Notes under the pieces: generated by a model | Databases searched by the model: none | Seen by the model: the letters and a program-made list of their open reading frames with translations, nothing else | What the model was told of the DNA's origin: nothing | Position numbers and translations under genes: made by a program | Shown: positions 2,428-19,754 of the stretch, in pieces | Layout of the letters: each line of letters starts with the position of its first letter | Numbering within the stretch: position 1 is the stretch's first letter | From: Myxococcus landrumus | GTDB lineage: Bacteria; Myxococcota; Myxococcia; Myxococcales; Myxococcaceae | Reading direction: 5' to 3' | Assembly (NCBI RefSeq): GCF_017301635.1 | Contig: NZ_CP071091.1 | Coordinates: 6,832,001 to 6,896,000, forward strand | Length of the DNA: 64,000 nt

Positions 2428-2988
2428 TCAGCGCGTGACGCCGCCGTCCCTCCACCAGGAAGGCACGGAGTCCAGCGGCGCTCCCCAGGTCGTGTCTCCC
2501 ACGGGTGGAGTGGCATCCACCGGCGCCACGGAGGTCCCTGCATCGGGCGGGGATGCCTGGATTGAGGGCGTCGCGGGTTCTCCATCGAAGTGCCGCCGGA
2601 GAATGCGGCCATCGAGACCAATGGCGTAGCGAACGCCGCCATCCAACAGACGGGGCTCCGGCCGGCAAGCCTCGGGGTCCGCCGCGATGCTCACGAAGTA
2701 GACGCCAGCCTGCCGCAGTACCCGGTAGCGGTAGGACTCCTGCCTGTTCCAGCAGGACGGCCCACGCAACTCGGGTGGCAAGAAGTCATCAGCGGCGATC
2801 TTCAGGGCGCGGAGCAGGGCCCCATCCAGGACGTAGGGCTGCCCTGGTACGTCCAGGGGGAGGGCTTCACGAGCAAAGAAGTCCGGAAAGGCGATGGACG
2901 TGTCTTCGAGGGGGAGTGCGGAGCGCGATGTTGGCTGACGCATGCAGCTCATCAAGAGGATGAGCACCAACAGGAGCAAGCGTCTCAT
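2428..2988 (-). CDS. Hypothetical lipoprotein
   Basis: This 186-residue protein starts MRRLLLLVLILLMSC, a lipoprotein signal with the lipid-attachment Cys at residue 15. The body holds paired Cys residues (in GPSCWNR and PEACRPE) and the C-terminus is rich in Pro and Asp. I recognise no domain. The ATG at 2988 overlaps the stop of the upstream lipoprotein gene (ATGA, 2985-2988), so the two are translationally coupled and probably act together. An alternative upstream start at 3009 would bury the signal peptide. The gene converges on the SDR gene with a 9-bp gap. Confidence 0.75.
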   Translation of the reverse strand: MRRLLLLVLILLMSCMRQPTSRSALPLEDTSIAFPDFFAREALPLDVPGQPYVLDGALLRALKIAADDFLPPELRGPSCWNRQESYRYRVLRQAGVYFVSIAADPEACRPEPRLLDGGVRYAIGLDGRILRRHFDGEPATPSIQASPPDAGTSVAPVDATPPVGDTTWGAPLDSVPSWWRDGGVTR

Positions 2989-3770
2989 GGGGTCGTGCTC
3001 CTCTCGCAAGGACGGTTCTCCCTCTTCACGGTGAATGTCCTTTGCCTCGACTCAGACCACTGAACCAGCCCTGTCTGCTCACACTGCCAACGCTTCCCAT
3101 CGCGAGTCCATTGCAGGAGCTGCCCGGTCAACGGAATGTACTGATGGAATCCATCGCACGAGGGCTCGGCGACATCCCGTGAGAAGAACGCCACGATGGA
3201 AAGTCGTAGGCGGCCATCCTTCGTCTCGCTCTCGAAGCCATGGGCAACGCCCTCGGACACGATGAAGTGAATGTCGTTCTCCGTCAGCTCGCTCCCATAC
3301 GGGTGGTTGTGCAGAGCGTAGATGTACTTGATGGAGTCGGGAGGGTAGCGCGGGTCGTCCACGACAGAGGGGAGGAGGCAGCTCTTGCTGCGGTGCAGTG
3401 GATCGACCTTCGACTGGTCCGTCAACTTGCTGACGACGTAGTTCTGGTCCGGCGTGTAGTAGAGCCAGGCGCAATACTCGCTGGAGACTCGCCAGCGCAC
3501 ATCGAAGTCCTGGCGGTCGTGGCGCCCCGCATTCGCATGGGGTTTCTTGAGAATCTTCCGACAAGCGGCGAGCAGCGCGTTTGAAGGGGAAGTGAACGGC
3601 CCGAGCATTGGCCCCGGTAGCTTCTCCAGATAGGGAGCACCTGAGACGGGACGCACGATGTCTTCGTCCATGGGCGGGGAGGAGGAACATCCCCACAGCA
3701 CCAGAGCAGCAAACCCCCAGGTCCCACGCAGCCTCGCCAGCATTCGAGTGCTCCTTGGGTGATTCCTCAT
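2985..3770 (-). CDS. Lipoprotein with JAMM/DUF4329-like metal-binding motif
   Basis: This 261-residue protein has an N-terminal lipoprotein signal ending LVLWGC, with the Cys at about residue 28 (an ATG at residue 10 is an alternative start). Residues 153-166 read LHNHPYGSELTEND. This resembles the HxHP...SxxD metal site of JAB/JAMM and DUF4329-type proteins such as RadC, with Thr-Glu in place of the usual Ser region. A JAMM-like fold is an inference from this motif alone; the N-terminal catalytic Glu is not clear to me. The gene is coupled to a second lipoprotein gene by a 4-bp overlap. Peptidase, deubiquitinase-like or structural roles are all possible. Confidence 0.6.
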   Translation of the reverse strand: MRNHPRSTRMLARLRGTWGFAALVLWGCSSSPPMDEDIVRPVSGAPYLEKLPGPMLGPFTSPSNALLAACRKILKKPHANAGRHDRQDFDVRWRVSSEYCAWLYYTPDQNYVVSKLTDQSKVDPLHRSKSCLLPSVVDDPRYPPDSIKYIYALHNHPYGSELTENDIHFIVSEGVAHGFESETKDGRLRLSIVAFFSRDVAEPSCDGFHQYIPLTGQLLQWTRDGKRWQCEQTGLVQWSESRQRTFTVKRENRPCERSTTP

Positions 3771-5097: not shown

Positions 5098-6120
5098 CTA
5101 CTTCATGTACTTCGCGATGAGCGCGTTCGCCTTCTCCGGCGCGCTCTTGCACTCCAGCAGCGCGTTCAGCACCAGCGGGGCGACGATGGTGGCGTCCGAC
5201 TCGATGACGAACATCGGCGTCGTCTCCGTCAGCTTGTCCCACGTAATCTTCTCGTTCGGCGTCGCGCCCGAGTACGAGCCGTAGGACGTCGTCGAGTCGC
5301 TGATCTGGCAGAAGTACGCCCACGGCTTCACGGGCTTCTGCAGGTCGTACTTGATGGAGGGCACCACGCAGATGGGGAAGTCACCGGCGATGCCGCCGCC
5401 AATCTGGAAGAAGCCCACGCCCTCACCCTGGGAGAGCGTCTCGTAGCGGTCGTAGAAGTCCGCCATGTACTCGATGCCCGACTTGACGACGCTCGCCTTG
5501 CAGTCGCCCGTCTTCACATACGACGCGAAGATGTTGCCGAACGTCGAGTCCTCGTACCCCGGCACCACGATGGGCAGGTTCGCCCGGGCCGCCGCGAGCA
5601 GCCAGCACGCCTCCGGGTCACCCTCGTACGCCGAGGGCTCCAGCGCCTGGATGACCTCGTAGAAGTACTCGTGCCAGAAGCGGCGCTCGCCCTTCTCGCT
5701 CGCGTTCTTCCACATGGGGACGATGAACTTCTCCACCGCGCGGAACGCCTCGTCCTCCGGGATGCTCGTGTCCGTCACCCGGCGCATCCGGTTCTCCAGG
5801 ATGCGCGTGTCGTCCTGCTTGGTGAGGTAGCGGTACTCGGGGAAGTCCTTGTACGAGTGGTGCGCCACCAGCCGGAAGAGCGACTCCTCGATGTTGGCGC
5901 CCGTGACGGAGAAGCCGTGAATCAGCCCCGCGCGGATGGCGGGCGCGAGGGTGATGCCCAACTGCGCCGAAGACATCGCGCCCGCGACGCTCCAGAACAT
6001 GCGGCCGCCCTTCGAGAGATGCTCCCAGTACGACAGGAGCGCATCGCGAGTCGCGCGCGCGTTGAAGTTCTTGTAGTTCGCGAGGACGAACTCCAGGACG
6101 GGAAGTTCAGATGTGGCCAT
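5098..6120 (-). CDS. Deoxyhypusine synthase-like protein
   Basis: This 340-residue protein matches the deoxyhypusine synthase family along its length. It has the N-terminal motif GRMFWSVAGAMSSAQLG and GFFQIGGGIAGDFPICVVPS. It also has WDKL, which aligns with the WGK lysine used by the eukaryotic enzyme to carry the butylimine intermediate. Bacteria lack eIF5A, and characterised bacterial relatives have been linked to homospermidine or other polyamine chemistry, so the substrate here is probably a polyamine. The ATG at 6120 has GGAGG about 8 nt upstream; the longer frame to 6198 has no such site. It appears monocistronic. Confidence 0.85.
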   Translation of the reverse strand: MATSELPVLEFVLANYKNFNARATRDALLSYWEHLSKGGRMFWSVAGAMSSAQLGITLAPAIRAGLIHGFSVTGANIEESLFRLVAHHSYKDFPEYRYLTKQDDTRILENRMRRVTDTSIPEDEAFRAVEKFIVPMWKNASEKGERRFWHEYFYEVIQALEPSAYEGDPEACWLLAAARANLPIVVPGYEDSTFGNIFASYVKTGDCKASVVKSGIEYMADFYDRYETLSQGEGVGFFQIGGGIAGDFPICVVPSIKYDLQKPVKPWAYFCQISDSTTSYGSYSGATPNEKITWDKLTETTPMFVIESDATIVAPLVLNALLECKSAPEKANALIAKYMK

Positions 6121-6404
6121 GAGTGCCTCCAGCAACGACGTGGTCGAGGCTCGAGTGGCGCTGTCGGGAAATGCCACCCGAGGACACCCTACGGTCACGA
6201 CCCAGAAGGTCGCGCCGCCATCGGAGCGTCAAGTGGCTGCCGGCTGGCTATCACAGCCAGGCCGTCACGGCCACGGCATTGCACACCCCCACGCGGCGCG
6301 AAACGCCCCTCCCCCGGCTCGCCCCGCCACCTGGGATTCACCCGGCAGGCCCGAGGCAAGCCCGCCCCTGTCCAGGCAGCGGTGCACGACAACCACTTCC
6401 GACC
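6121..6404. other. Intergenic region without recognised gene
   Basis: This is the upstream side of the deoxyhypusine-synthase-like gene plus the downstream side of the amidohydrolase gene. No conserved reading frame or RNA gene is seen. It presumably holds the promoter of the minus-strand gene starting at 6120. Confidence 0.5.
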
Positions 6405-15801: not shown

Positions 15802-16812
15802 ATGTGGGGGTTGAAGAATCGCACGACATACGCCGCAGAGCGGAACTGGACTCGTGACAAAGACGGAGTCCATTGGTGGCTCGTCGCAGTCAAGGCAACG
15901 TTCAACATCGCCACCCAAGGGGTCCTTACACTTGCGGATGAGCAGCCCCCTCCAGTGCTGGCACCAGAGTATTTCGGAGAACCTGGCCGGTCGAGCTTGC
16001 GCTACGACTCTGATCTCCTCGTTGCGAAACCGGGGACGGACGTACTGGTTGCGGCGCACGCGCACGCTCCTCGAGGAAAGACTGCTCCAATAGTGCCGGT
16101 CTCTCTCCGGATCGAACAGGTCCACAAGGAGCTGCTTGTATACGGAGAACGCATCTACGACCGGGGAATGCTTGGCGCATCGGCGACCTCTCCACGGCCA
16201 TTCACCACACGCCCGATTCGATATGAATTCGCATTTGGTGGCAGCGACCTCACAGATTCCGATCCCCAGAAACACCGCATCGACGAAAGGAACCCCATCG
16301 GGCGTGGTTTCGTGCGGCGCTCATCTCATGTGATTGGGAAACAGGCTCATGCGATAGAATATCCACGGGGTGTTCCAGCAGAGATGGGACCTGCGGGGTT
16401 CGGCCCGATTGATGCGTCGTGGATGCCGCGACGCAAGCTTGCAGGGACATATGACGCACGATGGGTGCAGTCGAAGAAACCTCTACTGCCCGACGACTTC
16501 GACCCCGCCTTTGCGATGAGTGCCCCAACGGACCAGCGAACCAGCAAGCCCCTGGCCGGAGGTGAGCGTGTCCAACTCCTGAACATGACCCCTGACAGTA
16601 CCTTGCGCTTCGAGCTCCCGCGGATTCTGCTCGGCTTTACCACACGCATCGGCACACGGAGGGTGCCTCACAGCTCTCGATTGGTGACAGTGCTTATAGA
16701 GCCCGAGGAAAAGCGCCTGTCCCTGGTGTGGCAGAGCACGCTACGAGTTTCCGCCCCTGATGCGGACTATCTCGACGAGACGGAAATCGTCGAACTAAGG
16801 AGCACGACATGA
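15802..16812 (+). CDS. DUF2169 type VI effector adaptor-like protein
   Basis: This 336-residue protein belongs to DUF2169. It has an N-terminal VKATFNIATQGVLTLADEQP strand set, RYDSDLLVAKPGTDVLVAAH, then RPIRYEFAFGGSD and IGRGF, with the late block LPRILLGFTTRIG. DUF2169 proteins are encoded beside PAAR-type effectors and are thought to help load them on the type VI spike. It starts at the ATG at 15802 and overlaps the next gene by 4 bp (ATGA), so it is the first gene of the effector operon. Third-position base use is looser than in the surrounding chromosome, consistent with acquisition. Confidence 0.88.
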   Translation: MWGLKNRTTYAAERNWTRDKDGVHWWLVAVKATFNIATQGVLTLADEQPPPVLAPEYFGEPGRSSLRYDSDLLVAKPGTDVLVAAHAHAPRGKTAPIVPVSLRIEQVHKELLVYGERIYDRGMLGASATSPRPFTTRPIRYEFAFGGSDLTDSDPQKHRIDERNPIGRGFVRRSSHVIGKQAHAIEYPRGVPAEMGPAGFGPIDASWMPRRKLAGTYDARWVQSKKPLLPDDFDPAFAMSAPTDQRTSKPLAGGERVQLLNMTPDSTLRFELPRILLGFTTRIGTRRVPHSSRLVTVLIEPEEKRLSLVWQSTLRVSAPDADYLDETEIVELRSTT

Positions 16813-17861
16813 GAGCCCAGGTCGAGGTCGTGGCCGTCGGCGCGAGAACCCCTGTCGGGCTCACCGCCGAGAGCAGCTCAGCAGCCGTGCGAGCTGGCAT
16901 CGTGCGGTACGTCGAGTATCCGTTCATCTCTCCTCACGGCGAACCCGTCGTGGTCGCCGCCGACGGGCTGCTTGGGCCCGATATCGAGGGGAGGGACCGT
17001 CTGGTGTCCATGGCCCAGAGTGCGCTCGATGAGATTGAAACCAAGCTGGCTCATGAGCTGCTCTACGAGGGCAGACTCAGGATGTTGCTCGCACTACCGG
17101 AACCCCGCCCAGGGTTCTCCGAGGGCGACGCGGCGTGGGTAGCGGACTCCTTGGCTGCGCGCTTCCGAGCGAAGTCACCGAGCGCTCGTGTCGAGATTGC
17201 CGGACGCGGGCACGCAGGGGCCATTCTGGCGGTGGAACAGGTCATGAAGGAATGCTCCGAAAGCAAAGATGTTCTGTTCCTGGTCATGGGCGTCGACAGC
17301 TACCACCATGCAGATACGTTCGTATGGCTGGAGCGCAACCGCAGATTCGCACAGCCGGGAATCCGCAGCGGGTTTACCCCAGGCGAAGGAGTTGGATGTC
17401 TTGCACTGATGAGTGCGGGAATGCGCCGTCGCTTGCACCTCTCCCCACTGGCACTCCTGAGAGGAGCGTGTACCGCCCATGAGCGGCTGCTGCGCGACAG
17501 TGAGACGGGCTCGTTCGGTATCGGAATGACCCAGGCCGTCGCAGGCGCCATCTCGGGCCTCGACCTTTCCCGCGAAAGCGTCGACGTCGTGTACACGGAC
17601 ATCAATGGCGAGCGTTACCGCAGCGAGGAGTGGGGCTTCGTAGCGTTACGCGCGCCCTCTGCATGGAAGACACCCGGGTACAAGGCCCCAAGCGACTGCT
17701 GGGGCGACGTGGGTGCCGCGTCTGGCACACTCGAGAGCATCCTGGCGCTCCGGGCGTTCGCTCGGGGCTATGCACGAGGCCCGCGGGCACTGGTGATGGC
17801 AGGCTCTGATTCGGGGCTGAGGGGAGCAATGCTCCTGCAAGCTCCGCAGACGTCGTCATGA
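16809..17861 (+). CDS. Thiolase/ketosynthase-fold protein of a type VI effector cluster, probably non-catalytic
   Basis: This 350-residue protein has a beta-ketoacyl-synthase-like layout. VAVGARTPVGLTAESSSAAV lies at the start and LFLVMGVDSYHHADTFVWLE mid-protein. RSGFTPGEGVGCLALMSAG aligns with the glycine-rich GEGA block of ketosynthases, and a C-terminal CWGDVGAASGTLESILAL is present. The place of the nucleophilic Cys reads AGRGHAGAILAVEQ, with no Cys, so condensation chemistry is doubtful. Such proteins recur between DUF2169 and PAAR genes in type VI clusters, where a structural or chaperone role is possible. It overlaps the DUF2169 gene by 4 bp and precedes the effector by 13 bp. Confidence 0.8.
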   Translation: MRAQVEVVAVGARTPVGLTAESSSAAVRAGIVRYVEYPFISPHGEPVVVAADGLLGPDIEGRDRLVSMAQSALDEIETKLAHELLYEGRLRMLLALPEPRPGFSEGDAAWVADSLAARFRAKSPSARVEIAGRGHAGAILAVEQVMKECSESKDVLFLVMGVDSYHHADTFVWLERNRRFAQPGIRSGFTPGEGVGCLALMSAGMRRRLHLSPLALLRGACTAHERLLRDSETGSFGIGMTQAVAGAISGLDLSRESVDVVYTDINGERYRSEEWGFVALRAPSAWKTPGYKAPSDCWGDVGAASGTLESILALRAFARGYARGPRALVMAGSDSGLRGAMLLQAPQTSS

Positions 17862-17874
17862 GGAGACCATCCAC

Positions 17875-19017
17875 ATGTCGAAAGTTTCAGTGAATACGCC
17901 AAAGACCCCGGTTACCGAAGGGAGTAACGGGCTCGCCGCGGCAACAGTTCCCAACATCTGCAAGATGCCGGGGCCGCCGGCACCATTTGTCCCGACCCCG
18001 TTGCCCAACATCGGCAAAAGCGGAACAGACCCGAAGAACTATTCAAAGAGTGTCACCATCGAAGGAAAGAAGGTGGCGATCAGAGGCGCAACCTTCGGTT
18101 CCATGGGTGACGTGGCCAGCAAAGGGACTGGCGGCGGAATCGTCTCCTCCAACGTAGAAGGACCCACGAGCTTCGTGGGCCCTGGGTCCATGGACGTGAA
18201 GATCGAGGGAAAGAACGTCCAGTTGCTCGGCGACCCGATGCTTAACAACTGCGGGCCTGGCGGGAACCCCGCCAACGCGGCGACGATGATGGGGGTGCTC
18301 CAAACGACCGGGCTCGTCACTGTCGTCAATGGAGAGGACAGATGCCCCCTCTGCAGGCAACGACATGGTCAAGACAGCACGCTGAAAGAGACTCCGTCGA
18401 CCAAGGTCAGCGCTGGGCGGCTGGCACAGAGGGTCGCCAGAAAGGTGCGCAAGGGAGAACTCCCCAGCCCCTTTTCGACAATGCTAGGAGTGGTCCAGTG
18501 CAAGTGCGGACAGAAGAAAACCTATGCAGACCAATCGCGGGTGACACTTCAGGGTGTCTGCGACAGCATCAGGGAACTCAATTGGGTGGCCCCCGCAACT
18601 GGAAGTACCTCTGGTGCTACGAAACAATCGATTAAGGATTTCCTGAAAAAGCGATTCAGCCACCGCGCGAAAGACTTGGAGAAAATGTGGCAGAGGCTTG
18701 ATGCACGCGCGGATGACAGCAAGGCGGGTGCGACTTCTTCCGCAGCCTATCCGCCGGGTTCATGTGCTGGCCCAAAGGCACTCGTGCTCGCGCTAGAGGA
18801 CAAAGCCTATCCAAGCGGCCTCACCGAACGATGGTTCCACAGTCGCAAGCAATCGGTCGAGGCGAAGATCAAATTCTTCGATGAAGCGAGCGGTAAGATA
18901 GTCGAAGCCTCTTTCGGCCACGGCAAGACCGTCCCGCCGTGTTTGACCTGTAACGTCATCGTTCCTTCGATACTCTGCTCTGAAAACCAGGAAATGGAAT
19001 GTCGGCACCCTCAATAG
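17875..19017 (+). CDS. PAAR-like (DUF4150) effector with deaminase-like C-terminal domain
   Basis: This 380-residue protein begins with a DUF4150 PAAR-like spike tip (about residues 1-150: VPNICKMPGPPAPFVPTPLP, then GDPMLNNCGPGGNP). A Cys-rich middle follows (CPLC at 157-160 and CKC at 209-211), suggesting a zinc-binding linker. The C-terminal domain carries SCAGPKAL at 296-303 and VPPCLTCN at 353-360. This matches the C-A-E ... PCxxC layout of toxin deaminases but with Gly299 at the usual catalytic Glu. The likely role is a type VI-delivered effector modifying nucleotides or nucleic acids, if still active. AGGAGA lies before the ATG. The immunity gene starts 19 bp inside its 3' end. Confidence 0.75.
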   Translation: MSKVSVNTPKTPVTEGSNGLAAATVPNICKMPGPPAPFVPTPLPNIGKSGTDPKNYSKSVTIEGKKVAIRGATFGSMGDVASKGTGGGIVSSNVEGPTSFVGPGSMDVKIEGKNVQLLGDPMLNNCGPGGNPANAATMMGVLQTTGLVTVVNGEDRCPLCRQRHGQDSTLKETPSTKVSAGRLAQRVARKVRKGELPSPFSTMLGVVQCKCGQKKTYADQSRVTLQGVCDSIRELNWVAPATGSTSGATKQSIKDFLKKRFSHRAKDLEKMWQRLDARADDSKAGATSSAAYPPGSCAGPKALVLALEDKAYPSGLTERWFHSRKQSVEAKIKFFDEASGKIVEASFGHGKTVPPCLTCNVIVPSILCSENQEMECRHPQ

Positions 19018-19754
19018 AACTTGAGATGGAAGAACTGCTCCTGAGAATCGCGCCAGAACTCGCGGAGCAGTGGCAGGGAGCTCCCCCTGACATGATTGCA
19101 CGGGTCGAGAAGATCGCAGGCCGCCCTTTACCTCCGTTCTACCATTGGTTCCTGAGTCGCATGGGAAAGAGCATGGGGACTCTTGCGTATCCGACTCTCG
19201 ACTTTTCAGCAGAGCGCATTCTCGCCTGCTACGCCGAGAAACTGGTCGCCCCCGATTCCCGATTCCTGCTCATTGGGCATGAGTCCAATGAGCTCATGCC
19301 ATTACATGTCTTCTACGATTTCGACGAGCCGGCGCGGGAGGATGCTCTGGTGACGGAACGGGATGCCATGGGTGGTGAGCTCTACGATAGATTCGAGACT
19401 CTCCGAGAGATGTTGGCATGGGGTGCTCTTTTGAGATTCAGGGTCAACAAGATGCCGCAGAAGTGTGAAGGCATTCTTTCGAGCGATGATCCAGACCTTC
19501 TCTCGCACCTCGACCCATTGATGAGCAGCCTTGGATTCATCAAGCCGATTCCTACCGGGCCCCGCTGTGGCCTCTACGAGCGACACGACGCGGTCATGAT
19601 ATGCAAACGCACGCCAAGGGAAGAACTGCTGGGTCACCAGGCCTTCAGGCTTGGTGGCCGCGACGCAGGAGTCCTCAGGAAGATTCTGGGTCGGATGGCT
19701 ACCGAATCCTCGCTGGAGGTCGAAGTCGACGAATGGACTCCGGCGCTGCGATGA
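18999..19754 (+). CDS. SUKH (SMI1/KNR4) family immunity protein
   Basis: This 251-residue protein has an N-terminal SMI1/KNR4-like segment, IARVEKIAGRPLPPFYHWFL, the classical 'E...lg..LP..y..fl' opening of SUKH immunity proteins. A longer mixed alpha/beta tail follows and no signal peptide is present. It overlaps the effector gene by 19 bp, the normal toxin-immunity arrangement, and should act in the cytoplasm to protect producer and kin. The specific pairing with the deaminase-like domain is inferred from position. A weak AGGAA site precedes the ATG inside the effector gene. Confidence 0.8.
   Translation: MSAPSIELEMEELLLRIAPELAEQWQGAPPDMIARVEKIAGRPLPPFYHWFLSRMGKSMGTLAYPTLDFSAERILACYAEKLVAPDSRFLLIGHESNELMPLHVFYDFDEPAREDALVTERDAMGGELYDRFETLREMLAWGALLRFRVNKMPQKCEGILSSDDPDLLSHLDPLMSSLGFIKPIPTGPRCGLYERHDAVMICKRTPREELLGHQAFRLGGRDAGVLRKILGRMATESSLEVEVDEWTPALR

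Follow-up and report, generated by a model that had tools for sequence, protein, structure and literature searches.

What might an exported lipoprotein with the metal site of a JAB/JAMM protein do in a myxobacterium, and why would a second lipoprotein gene follow it so closely? This question is raised by two genes lying head to tail on the minus strand, the JAB gene and then its partner, in a 64,000-nucleotide stretch of Myxococcus landrumus DNA (contig NZ_CP071091.1, positions 6,832,001 to 6,896,000), here called the window; the host genome comprises 10.37 Mb in one contig. An initial annotation of this sequence had described a coupled lipoprotein pair at positions 2428-3770, and both open reading frames (ORFs) were indeed found there, each with a lipobox. 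Altogether, the data describe a real, ordered, multi-copy enzyme-partner system that is toxin-immunity-like by its genetics, and with moderate confidence we favor the reading of a toxin-immunity-like (enzyme-inhibitor) lipoprotein pair that acts in the envelope, probably between kin. The features of the pair are as follows.

2985..3770, minus strand: gene for the JAB/JAMM-fold lipoprotein, with an ATG start and 261 amino acids, of which the mature protein has 234, beginning at C28
3687..3689, minus strand: lipobox cysteine C28 of the JAB lipoprotein (lipobox WGC; Ser at +2, Met at +7), read from the translation and invariant in a 16-sequence alignment
3477..3479, minus strand: E98, the predicted catalytic glutamate, in an E-Y-C-A motif of the JAB lipoprotein; assigned by conservation, and aligned with the E of E-G-C-G in cytosolic Prok-JAB proteins
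3273..3314, minus strand: LHNHPYGSELTEND, JAB residues 153-166, with the predicted metal ligands H154, H156, and D166, together with T163
2985..2988, minus strand: ATGA, in whose sequence the JAB stop (TGA, 2985-2987) overlaps the partner start (ATG, 2986-2988)
2428..2988, minus strand: gene for the partner lipoprotein of 186 amino acids, with its stop at 2428-2430 and a predicted cystatin-like core
2944..2946, minus strand: lipobox cysteine C15 of the partner (lipobox MSC), read from the translation and invariant in 19 of 19 partners
Within 2428..2988, minus strand: C-terminal tail of the partner, rich in Pro, Asp, and Gly and of low confidence in the model

Given the overlap of stop and start in ATGA, translational coupling of the JAB gene and its partner is likely, and the earlier description of the partner as a cysteine-containing lipoprotein made from an overlapping start holds, with C15 in its lipobox.

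The fold of the JAB protein was predicted with AlphaFold2 on a 40-sequence alignment, giving a model with a predicted local distance difference test score (pLDDT) of 91.9 and a predicted TM score of 0.90, in which the metal-site motif lies where a strand ends and a helix starts. When the candidates from Foldseek were given a second look with VIA-align, 50 of 50 listed rows were MPN/JAMM chains (Z 6.2-7.3, root mean square deviation 3.3-5.4 Å), including Rpn11, BRCC36, AMSH, Pyrococcus JAMM1, Cap3, a bacterial Ubl-deubiquitinase complex, and RadC, as well as spliceosomal Prp8, COP9, and EMC; within the large complexes of the VIA-align and Foldseek rows, the chain counted is in part one that we presume to be the MPN chain. 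Thus, around residues 150-170, the region on which the initial annotation had staked its JAMM proposal, a JAB fold is predicted with the motif inside it. Foldseek alone was weak for the JAB model (best E 0.026, with MPN proteins in 7 of the 10 top rows) and gave no E below 0.001 for either the JAB or the partner model; against a library of viral structures, the best E for JAB was 0.002, above 0.001, with a phage 'JAB domain' protein at rank 4.

The site itself is conserved well beyond the window. In a close alignment of the window JAB and 39 relatives, 41-79% identical and drawn from 44 loci of which five split, shortened, or frame-shifted ones were excluded, all 40 sequences have E98, H154, H156, and D166; in a broader set of 23 members, with identities as low as 23%, every member has H154, H156, and D166, and at least 90% have E98. 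Because these residues are conserved across relatives, the motif is not a chance occurrence, and the HxHP...D resemblance noticed at the outset extends to a full JAMM residue set of E98, H154, H156, T163, and D166. Classical JAMM sites have a distance of 11 from the second His to the Asp. This distance is 10 in the window JAB and its clade, while other JAB members of the family have a spacing of 11, as in HSHPWSPSPMSETD. The family therefore shares with the JAB/JAMM metallopeptidases (Rpn11, AMSH, BRCC36, Pyrococcus JAMM1, Cap3; PF14464) the predicted MPN fold and the order E, HxH, S/T, D, whereas it differs from them in that the window protein is a predicted exported lipoprotein with conserved cysteines and a His-Asp spacing of 10 in its clade. 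Among the nine JAB loci that the close-alignment scan found in Hyalangium versicolor, one of them frame-shifted, three (L106, L108, and L110) have HNHT in place of HNHP, with the ligand residues intact.

Six JAB relatives (G018:C2:44685, G001:C164:41039, G007:C1:427213, G021:C1:8291716, G006:C1:8691678, and G024:C5:340590) score above the curated cut-off of the Pfam Prok-JAB family PF14464, and in all six, E, H, H, S, and D share one reading frame and a partner gene follows; a weak Prok-JAB match was obtained for 9 of the 23 broad members (best E 0.0036). When the broad JAB family was aligned with cytosolic Prok-JABs by hhalign, the site residues E, H, H, S, and D fell in register (E 8.1e-5, probability 61%). 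The window JAB lies below the PF14464 cut-off (0 matches), so we file it only in the fold superfamily: by its model, it is a JAB/MPN superfamily protein with a complete JAMM set and not a member of PF14464. In the favored reading, it is most likely a zinc peptidase or isopeptidase with a target in the envelope.

The linkage of the two genes was followed by examining the sequence at 145 of 149 listed JAB matches and at all 46 partner matches that seemingly lacked a JAB, which merged into 158 objects for the JAB and 194 for the partner (138 and 174, respectively, without the final 20 loci). A JAB was called complete when E, H, H, and D stood in one frame, start and signal not being required; some frame breaks in draft genomes may be sequencing errors. 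Complete JABs made up 121 of the 158 objects, one of them (G004:C5:296703) assigned by hand, and every one had a partner within 700 bases downstream, none of the 121 examined being partnerless, which bears out the proposal of a dedicated partner. Among the remaining 37 objects, 22 had a partner, 11 came after a partner, 3 had none, and 1 lay at a contig edge; the four with neither a downstream partner nor a position after one (the one at the contig edge included) all lack the JAMM residues. An earlier profile had left 45 of 149 JAB matches seemingly partnerless, mostly owing to low sensitivity; with the improved profile, all complete JABs were partnered.

The reverse does not hold. For the 184 full-length partners away from contig edges, the neighboring JAB is complete in 125 cases, incomplete in 21, and absent in 38, so that 59 of 184 are without a complete JAB; among the 38 is one that comes after a further partner, which in turn follows a JAB, so that this JAB lies two genes upstream. 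Partial partners were found once beside an incomplete JAB and three times without a JAB, and six partner objects lie at contig edges. At one locus (L154, G019:C60), the order is JAB-partner-partner, with tandem partner genes. Pairing of orphan partners with other upstream toxins was rejected for the 14 of 38 orphan loci inspected, where the upstream ORFs were unrelated or apparently spurious; by eye, several of these ORFs resemble a P450, a PAP2 phosphatase, a radical SAM protein, a PfkB kinase, a MacB permease, a BatA-like protein, and a phosphatase. With 0 of 121 complete JABs partnerless and orphan partners tolerated, the family follows the genetic rule of toxin and immunity genes, as a genetic pattern only.

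Loss of one gene from shared sites points the same way: in 8 of 8 syntenic comparisons, chosen rather than drawn at random, the JAB is gone and the partner is retained, at sites next to BatA-like, phosphatase, MacB, and amidohydrolase genes plus one further site. Five of these are clean JAB losses (L160 versus L082, L150 versus L085, L142 versus L076, L052 versus L075, and L153 versus L100) with main flanks 77-95% identical, and in the clearest, 741 bp of G010 are absent from G022 between flanks that are 93-95% identical. In the L051 comparison, one flank only matches, and at L054 and L140 other sequence replaces the JAB, at L140 a second partner gene in the opposite orientation. This pattern suggests that the first protein is harmful and the partner protective.

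The favored mechanism would run as follows. The JAB protein would be an outer-membrane lipoprotein whose JAB/JAMM metallo-hydrolase domain acts on an envelope target, and the cystatin-like lipoprotein partner would bind and neutralize its own enzyme, so that a cell could lose the enzyme and not the partner. Partners kept alone would serve as protection against the same enzyme from neighbors, and transfer between kin might take place via outer membrane exchange. That the JAB protein is a metal-dependent enzyme, that the partner inhibits it, that the target of the enzyme lies in the envelope, and that it is delivered to and used against kin are all steps that we infer.

We next consider how the pair evolves and how it is distributed, for which the analyses of co-diversification, lipoboxes, and selection cover 103 pairs and predate the last 20 loci. 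Identity distances of JAB and partner were correlated with a Mantel r of 0.886 over the 103 pairs, the highest of 1000 permutations reaching 0.086; inside five subfamilies the correlation was 0.63-0.85, and 214 comparisons made within genomes gave 0.86; the nearest neighbors of the two proteins agreed, with a small tolerance, in 82 of 103 pairs. By these sequence distances, JAB and partner co-diversify. The median ratio of nonsynonymous to synonymous substitution rates (dN/dS) was about 0.10 for JAB and about 0.15 for the partner over 81 usable close pairs, indicating purifying selection. In a comparison of the window with its closest relative, G009 (L071), the synonymous distance (dS) of the partner was 0.35 (core 0.52), and those of JAB and four neighbors were 0.12-0.15, with 0.21 for DoxX; since the partner stands well above JAB and its neighbors, one lineage may have acquired a different partner allele in place of the original.

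A profile scan of genome contigs with the close alignment found 44 loci in Myxococcus, Corallococcus, Archangium, Hyalangium, and a Myxococcaceae metagenome-assembled genome, with a partner just downstream at 43 of them; only L134 departs from this, a JAB that loses its reading frame after HNHP. Among the matches listed, a scope that also applies to the next three counts, the JAB and partner families are found in one and the same set of 28 genomes among 61 relatives. The JAB family is present in at least 62 of 195 Myxococcota genomes, all of one family (f1) and from 8 of 90 genera, in a survey that scored at most 15 candidates per genome, and each positive genome has 1-20 JAB-type matches, counts that include broken copies and the class of inactive third genes discussed below. 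Several species have close relatives of the pair near one and the same amidohydrolase-type gene. The genome of the window has a second locus (G000:C1:2277594-2278498), where a full-length partner stands next to the remnant of a broken JAB.

These data bear on the strongest competing explanation, which we consider unlikely, namely that the JAB protein is a housekeeping or stress envelope protease and the partner its own regulator, an inhibitory or chaperoning subunit, with nothing delivered to other cells. Purifying selection on both genes fits it, as do the place of the window pair among ordinary chromosomal genes and the position of its relatives near one amidohydrolase-type gene in several species; moreover, an enzyme with its inhibitor also predicts the one-way linkage. 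However, up to 20 JAB-type matches in a single genome and the 38 full-length partners that lack a JAB are unexpected if all the partner does is regulate its own enzyme.

Where the proteins reside was judged from their lipoboxes. In M. xanthus, Lys at +2 marks lipoproteins for the inner membrane and Ala at +7 is a matrix-sorting residue, as described in PMC3222651. By a simple pattern, a lipobox was recognized in 86 of the 103 JABs that are complete and in 94 of the 170 partners that are full length, both lower bounds because the pattern is too strict for some and misses LPAC; Lys at +2 was absent from all 86 of these JABs, and Ala at +7 was present in 9. With Ser at +2 and Met at +7 from C28, the window JAB has neither mark and is predicted to be an outer-membrane lipoprotein by the rule given in PMC3222651 and PMC5562445; the window partner, with Met at +2 and Ser at +7, comes out the same by the M. 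xanthus rule. Four cysteines in JAB and two in the partner are invariant or present in at least 90% of sequences, which fits a location outside the cytoplasm. A nucleic-acid target has been suggested for other toxin JABs (PMC3482391); here, the lipoboxes, the lack of Lys at +2, and the conserved cysteines point instead to a target in the envelope.

The same residues also speak to a predatory weapon, an improbable reading in which the JAB lipoprotein, displayed on the surface, in the matrix, or on vesicles, digests prey envelopes while the partner guards the producer. It could draw on the matrix-sorting Ala at +7 (PMC3222651) in 9 of 86 JABs and on the confinement of the JAB family to one family among the 195 Myxococcota genomes, but most members, including the window JAB with its Met at +7, lack this Ala, and lone partners suggest protection from relatives and not from self only.

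Some loci have a third lipoprotein gene after the partner, which the JAB profile finds and which has G for E and no HxH motif; 10 such objects were seen, and incomplete JABs following a partner number 11 in all. At L083, L084, L087, L090, L181, L182, L211, and L216, some of which are the same place, the motif reads G-Y-C-A and HxHP is absent. From its sequence, this third gene looks like a dead JAB copy. That the fold can serve without catalysis, as these ten relatives might indicate, is the chief point for a non-enzymatic pair, such as sensor or adhesion lipoproteins with a JAB domain that only binds a ligand, a reading we regard as the least probable of all given that catalysis best explains the complete E, H, H, and D in 121 of 158 JAB objects and 40 of 40 close sequences.

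The partner was modeled from precursor residue 21, and its confident core consists of a helix and four strands (block pLDDT up to 97), followed by the low-confidence tail. Among solved structures, the nearest to this model have a cystatin-like shape, namely a designed cystatin fold (Z 6.9), YpeB (Z 6.3), and human cystatins D and C (Z 5.8 and 5.6), with NTF2-like chains ranking lower; a chain of the Tae3-Tai3 effector-immunity complex is also among them (Z 4.5). These Z values are middling for a common shape. The best Foldseek match was a fragment of LolA (E 0.17), and no Pfam Imm family matched any of 19 partner members.

We then compared the pair with known toxin systems. According to PMC3482391, the JABs of prokaryotes were first known from inside the cell, mainly in ubiquitin-like systems, and their prediction as toxin domains within giant proteins came later; the same source describes Tox-JAB-1 in RHS toxins of Bacteroidetes with Imm65, itself a lipoprotein, and Tox-JAB-2 (DUF4329), with an E, H[ST]H, S, D motif and an alpha+beta immunity protein of the NTF2 type, Imm-NTF2-2. 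The plan of a JAB-type domain with a lipoprotein partner is shared with Tox-JAB-1/Imm65, without a sequence match; unlike Tox-JAB-1, the myxobacterial JAB is a stand-alone lipoprotein, and its partner matches no Imm family by sequence. With Tox-JAB-2, the family has the JAMM motif set in common, and the NTF2 type is a broad shape class that the cystatin-like partner may resemble. A DUF4329 match was, however, obtained in only 2 of 23 JAB members (best E 0.16) and there is no carrier domain; the DUF4329 profile gave 0 matches for the window JAB, the two PF14220 matches in 61 genomes are located elsewhere, and comparison of the JAB profile with two DUF4329 domains was weak.

Closer to home, SitA is a lipoprotein toxin with an N-terminal escort domain of about 375 amino acids and a C-terminal nuclease, paired with SitI (PMC5562445, PMC8546572), and its known members are described as nucleases acting in the cytoplasm (PMC8546572). 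The window pair resembles SitA/SitI as a predicted outer-membrane lipoprotein followed by a partner gene in a myxobacterium, but the JAB has only 234 mature amino acids and a JAB fold, and its partner is a lipoprotein. SitA membership is thus ruled out, because there is neither an escort domain nor a nuclease (JAB fold, no Pfam match). A PA14 match taken as a TraA candidate turned out to be another Cys-rich protein. No published JAB lipoprotein of myxobacteria was found among the open-access papers listed in literature searches.

Several points weigh against the toxin-immunity-like reading. Regarding the enzyme, all structural Z scores of the JAB model are below 8, which alone would be weak, the MPN assignment being carried because the list is uniform; the close relatives alone reached only E 0.021 against Prok-JAB, with the HxHP...S/T..D part in register; and the window JAB is without a Pfam or NCBIfam match (searches of Pfam, NCBIfam, and PADLOC returned nothing for either window protein, PHROGs gave one match at E 0.27, and the sequence profiles of both proteins found nothing meaningful in the PDB). 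The cystatin-like fold predicted for the partner is common and tells no function, and since the partner is also predicted to be in the outer membrane, it may be exchanged together with the enzyme, which would blunt toxin delivery by outer membrane exchange. The hypervariability typical of polymorphic toxins was not found; with median dN/dS of 0.10 and 0.15, both genes are constrained, which argues against fast-evolving toxins. Lastly, related genomes have losses in common, so the counts do not represent independent events, some of the incomplete JABs in draft genomes may be sequencing errors, and a partner with some other use of its own could likewise produce one-way loss.

A wider form of the toxin-immunity-like reading is possible, and we put it forward tentatively: social myxobacteria may possess a large and so far unrecognized arsenal of escort-free outer-membrane JAMM lipoprotein toxins, passed between kin by outer membrane exchange and attacking the periplasm, together with a larger set of cystatin-fold lipoprotein immunity proteins, many of them orphans, and with an inactive JAB after the immunity gene in some loci. 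Because the periplasm would be attacked directly, a domain for crossing the inner membrane would not be needed.

Two other regions of the window were noted. At 15802-19754 on the plus strand, genes for a DUF2169 protein (PF09937, E 3.4e-86), an unknown 350-amino-acid protein, a Tox-PAAR-like protein (PF13665, E 4.4e-17), and a 251-amino-acid unknown form a module, which we take to be type VI secretion system-type cargo; three of the four have a G+C content of 0.57-0.59, against about 0.68 around them. At 5098-6198 on the minus strand lies a gene for a deoxyhypusine-synthase-family protein (PF01916, E 1.2e-36), here in a bacterium.

An exported, free-standing, multi-copy JAMM lipoprotein with an obligate lipoprotein partner would be a simple system for JAMM cleavage outside the cytoplasm, for which the natural losses of JAB only supply ready-made predictions, and it could extend the known kin-discrimination toxins of myxobacteria by a class that acts in the periplasm.
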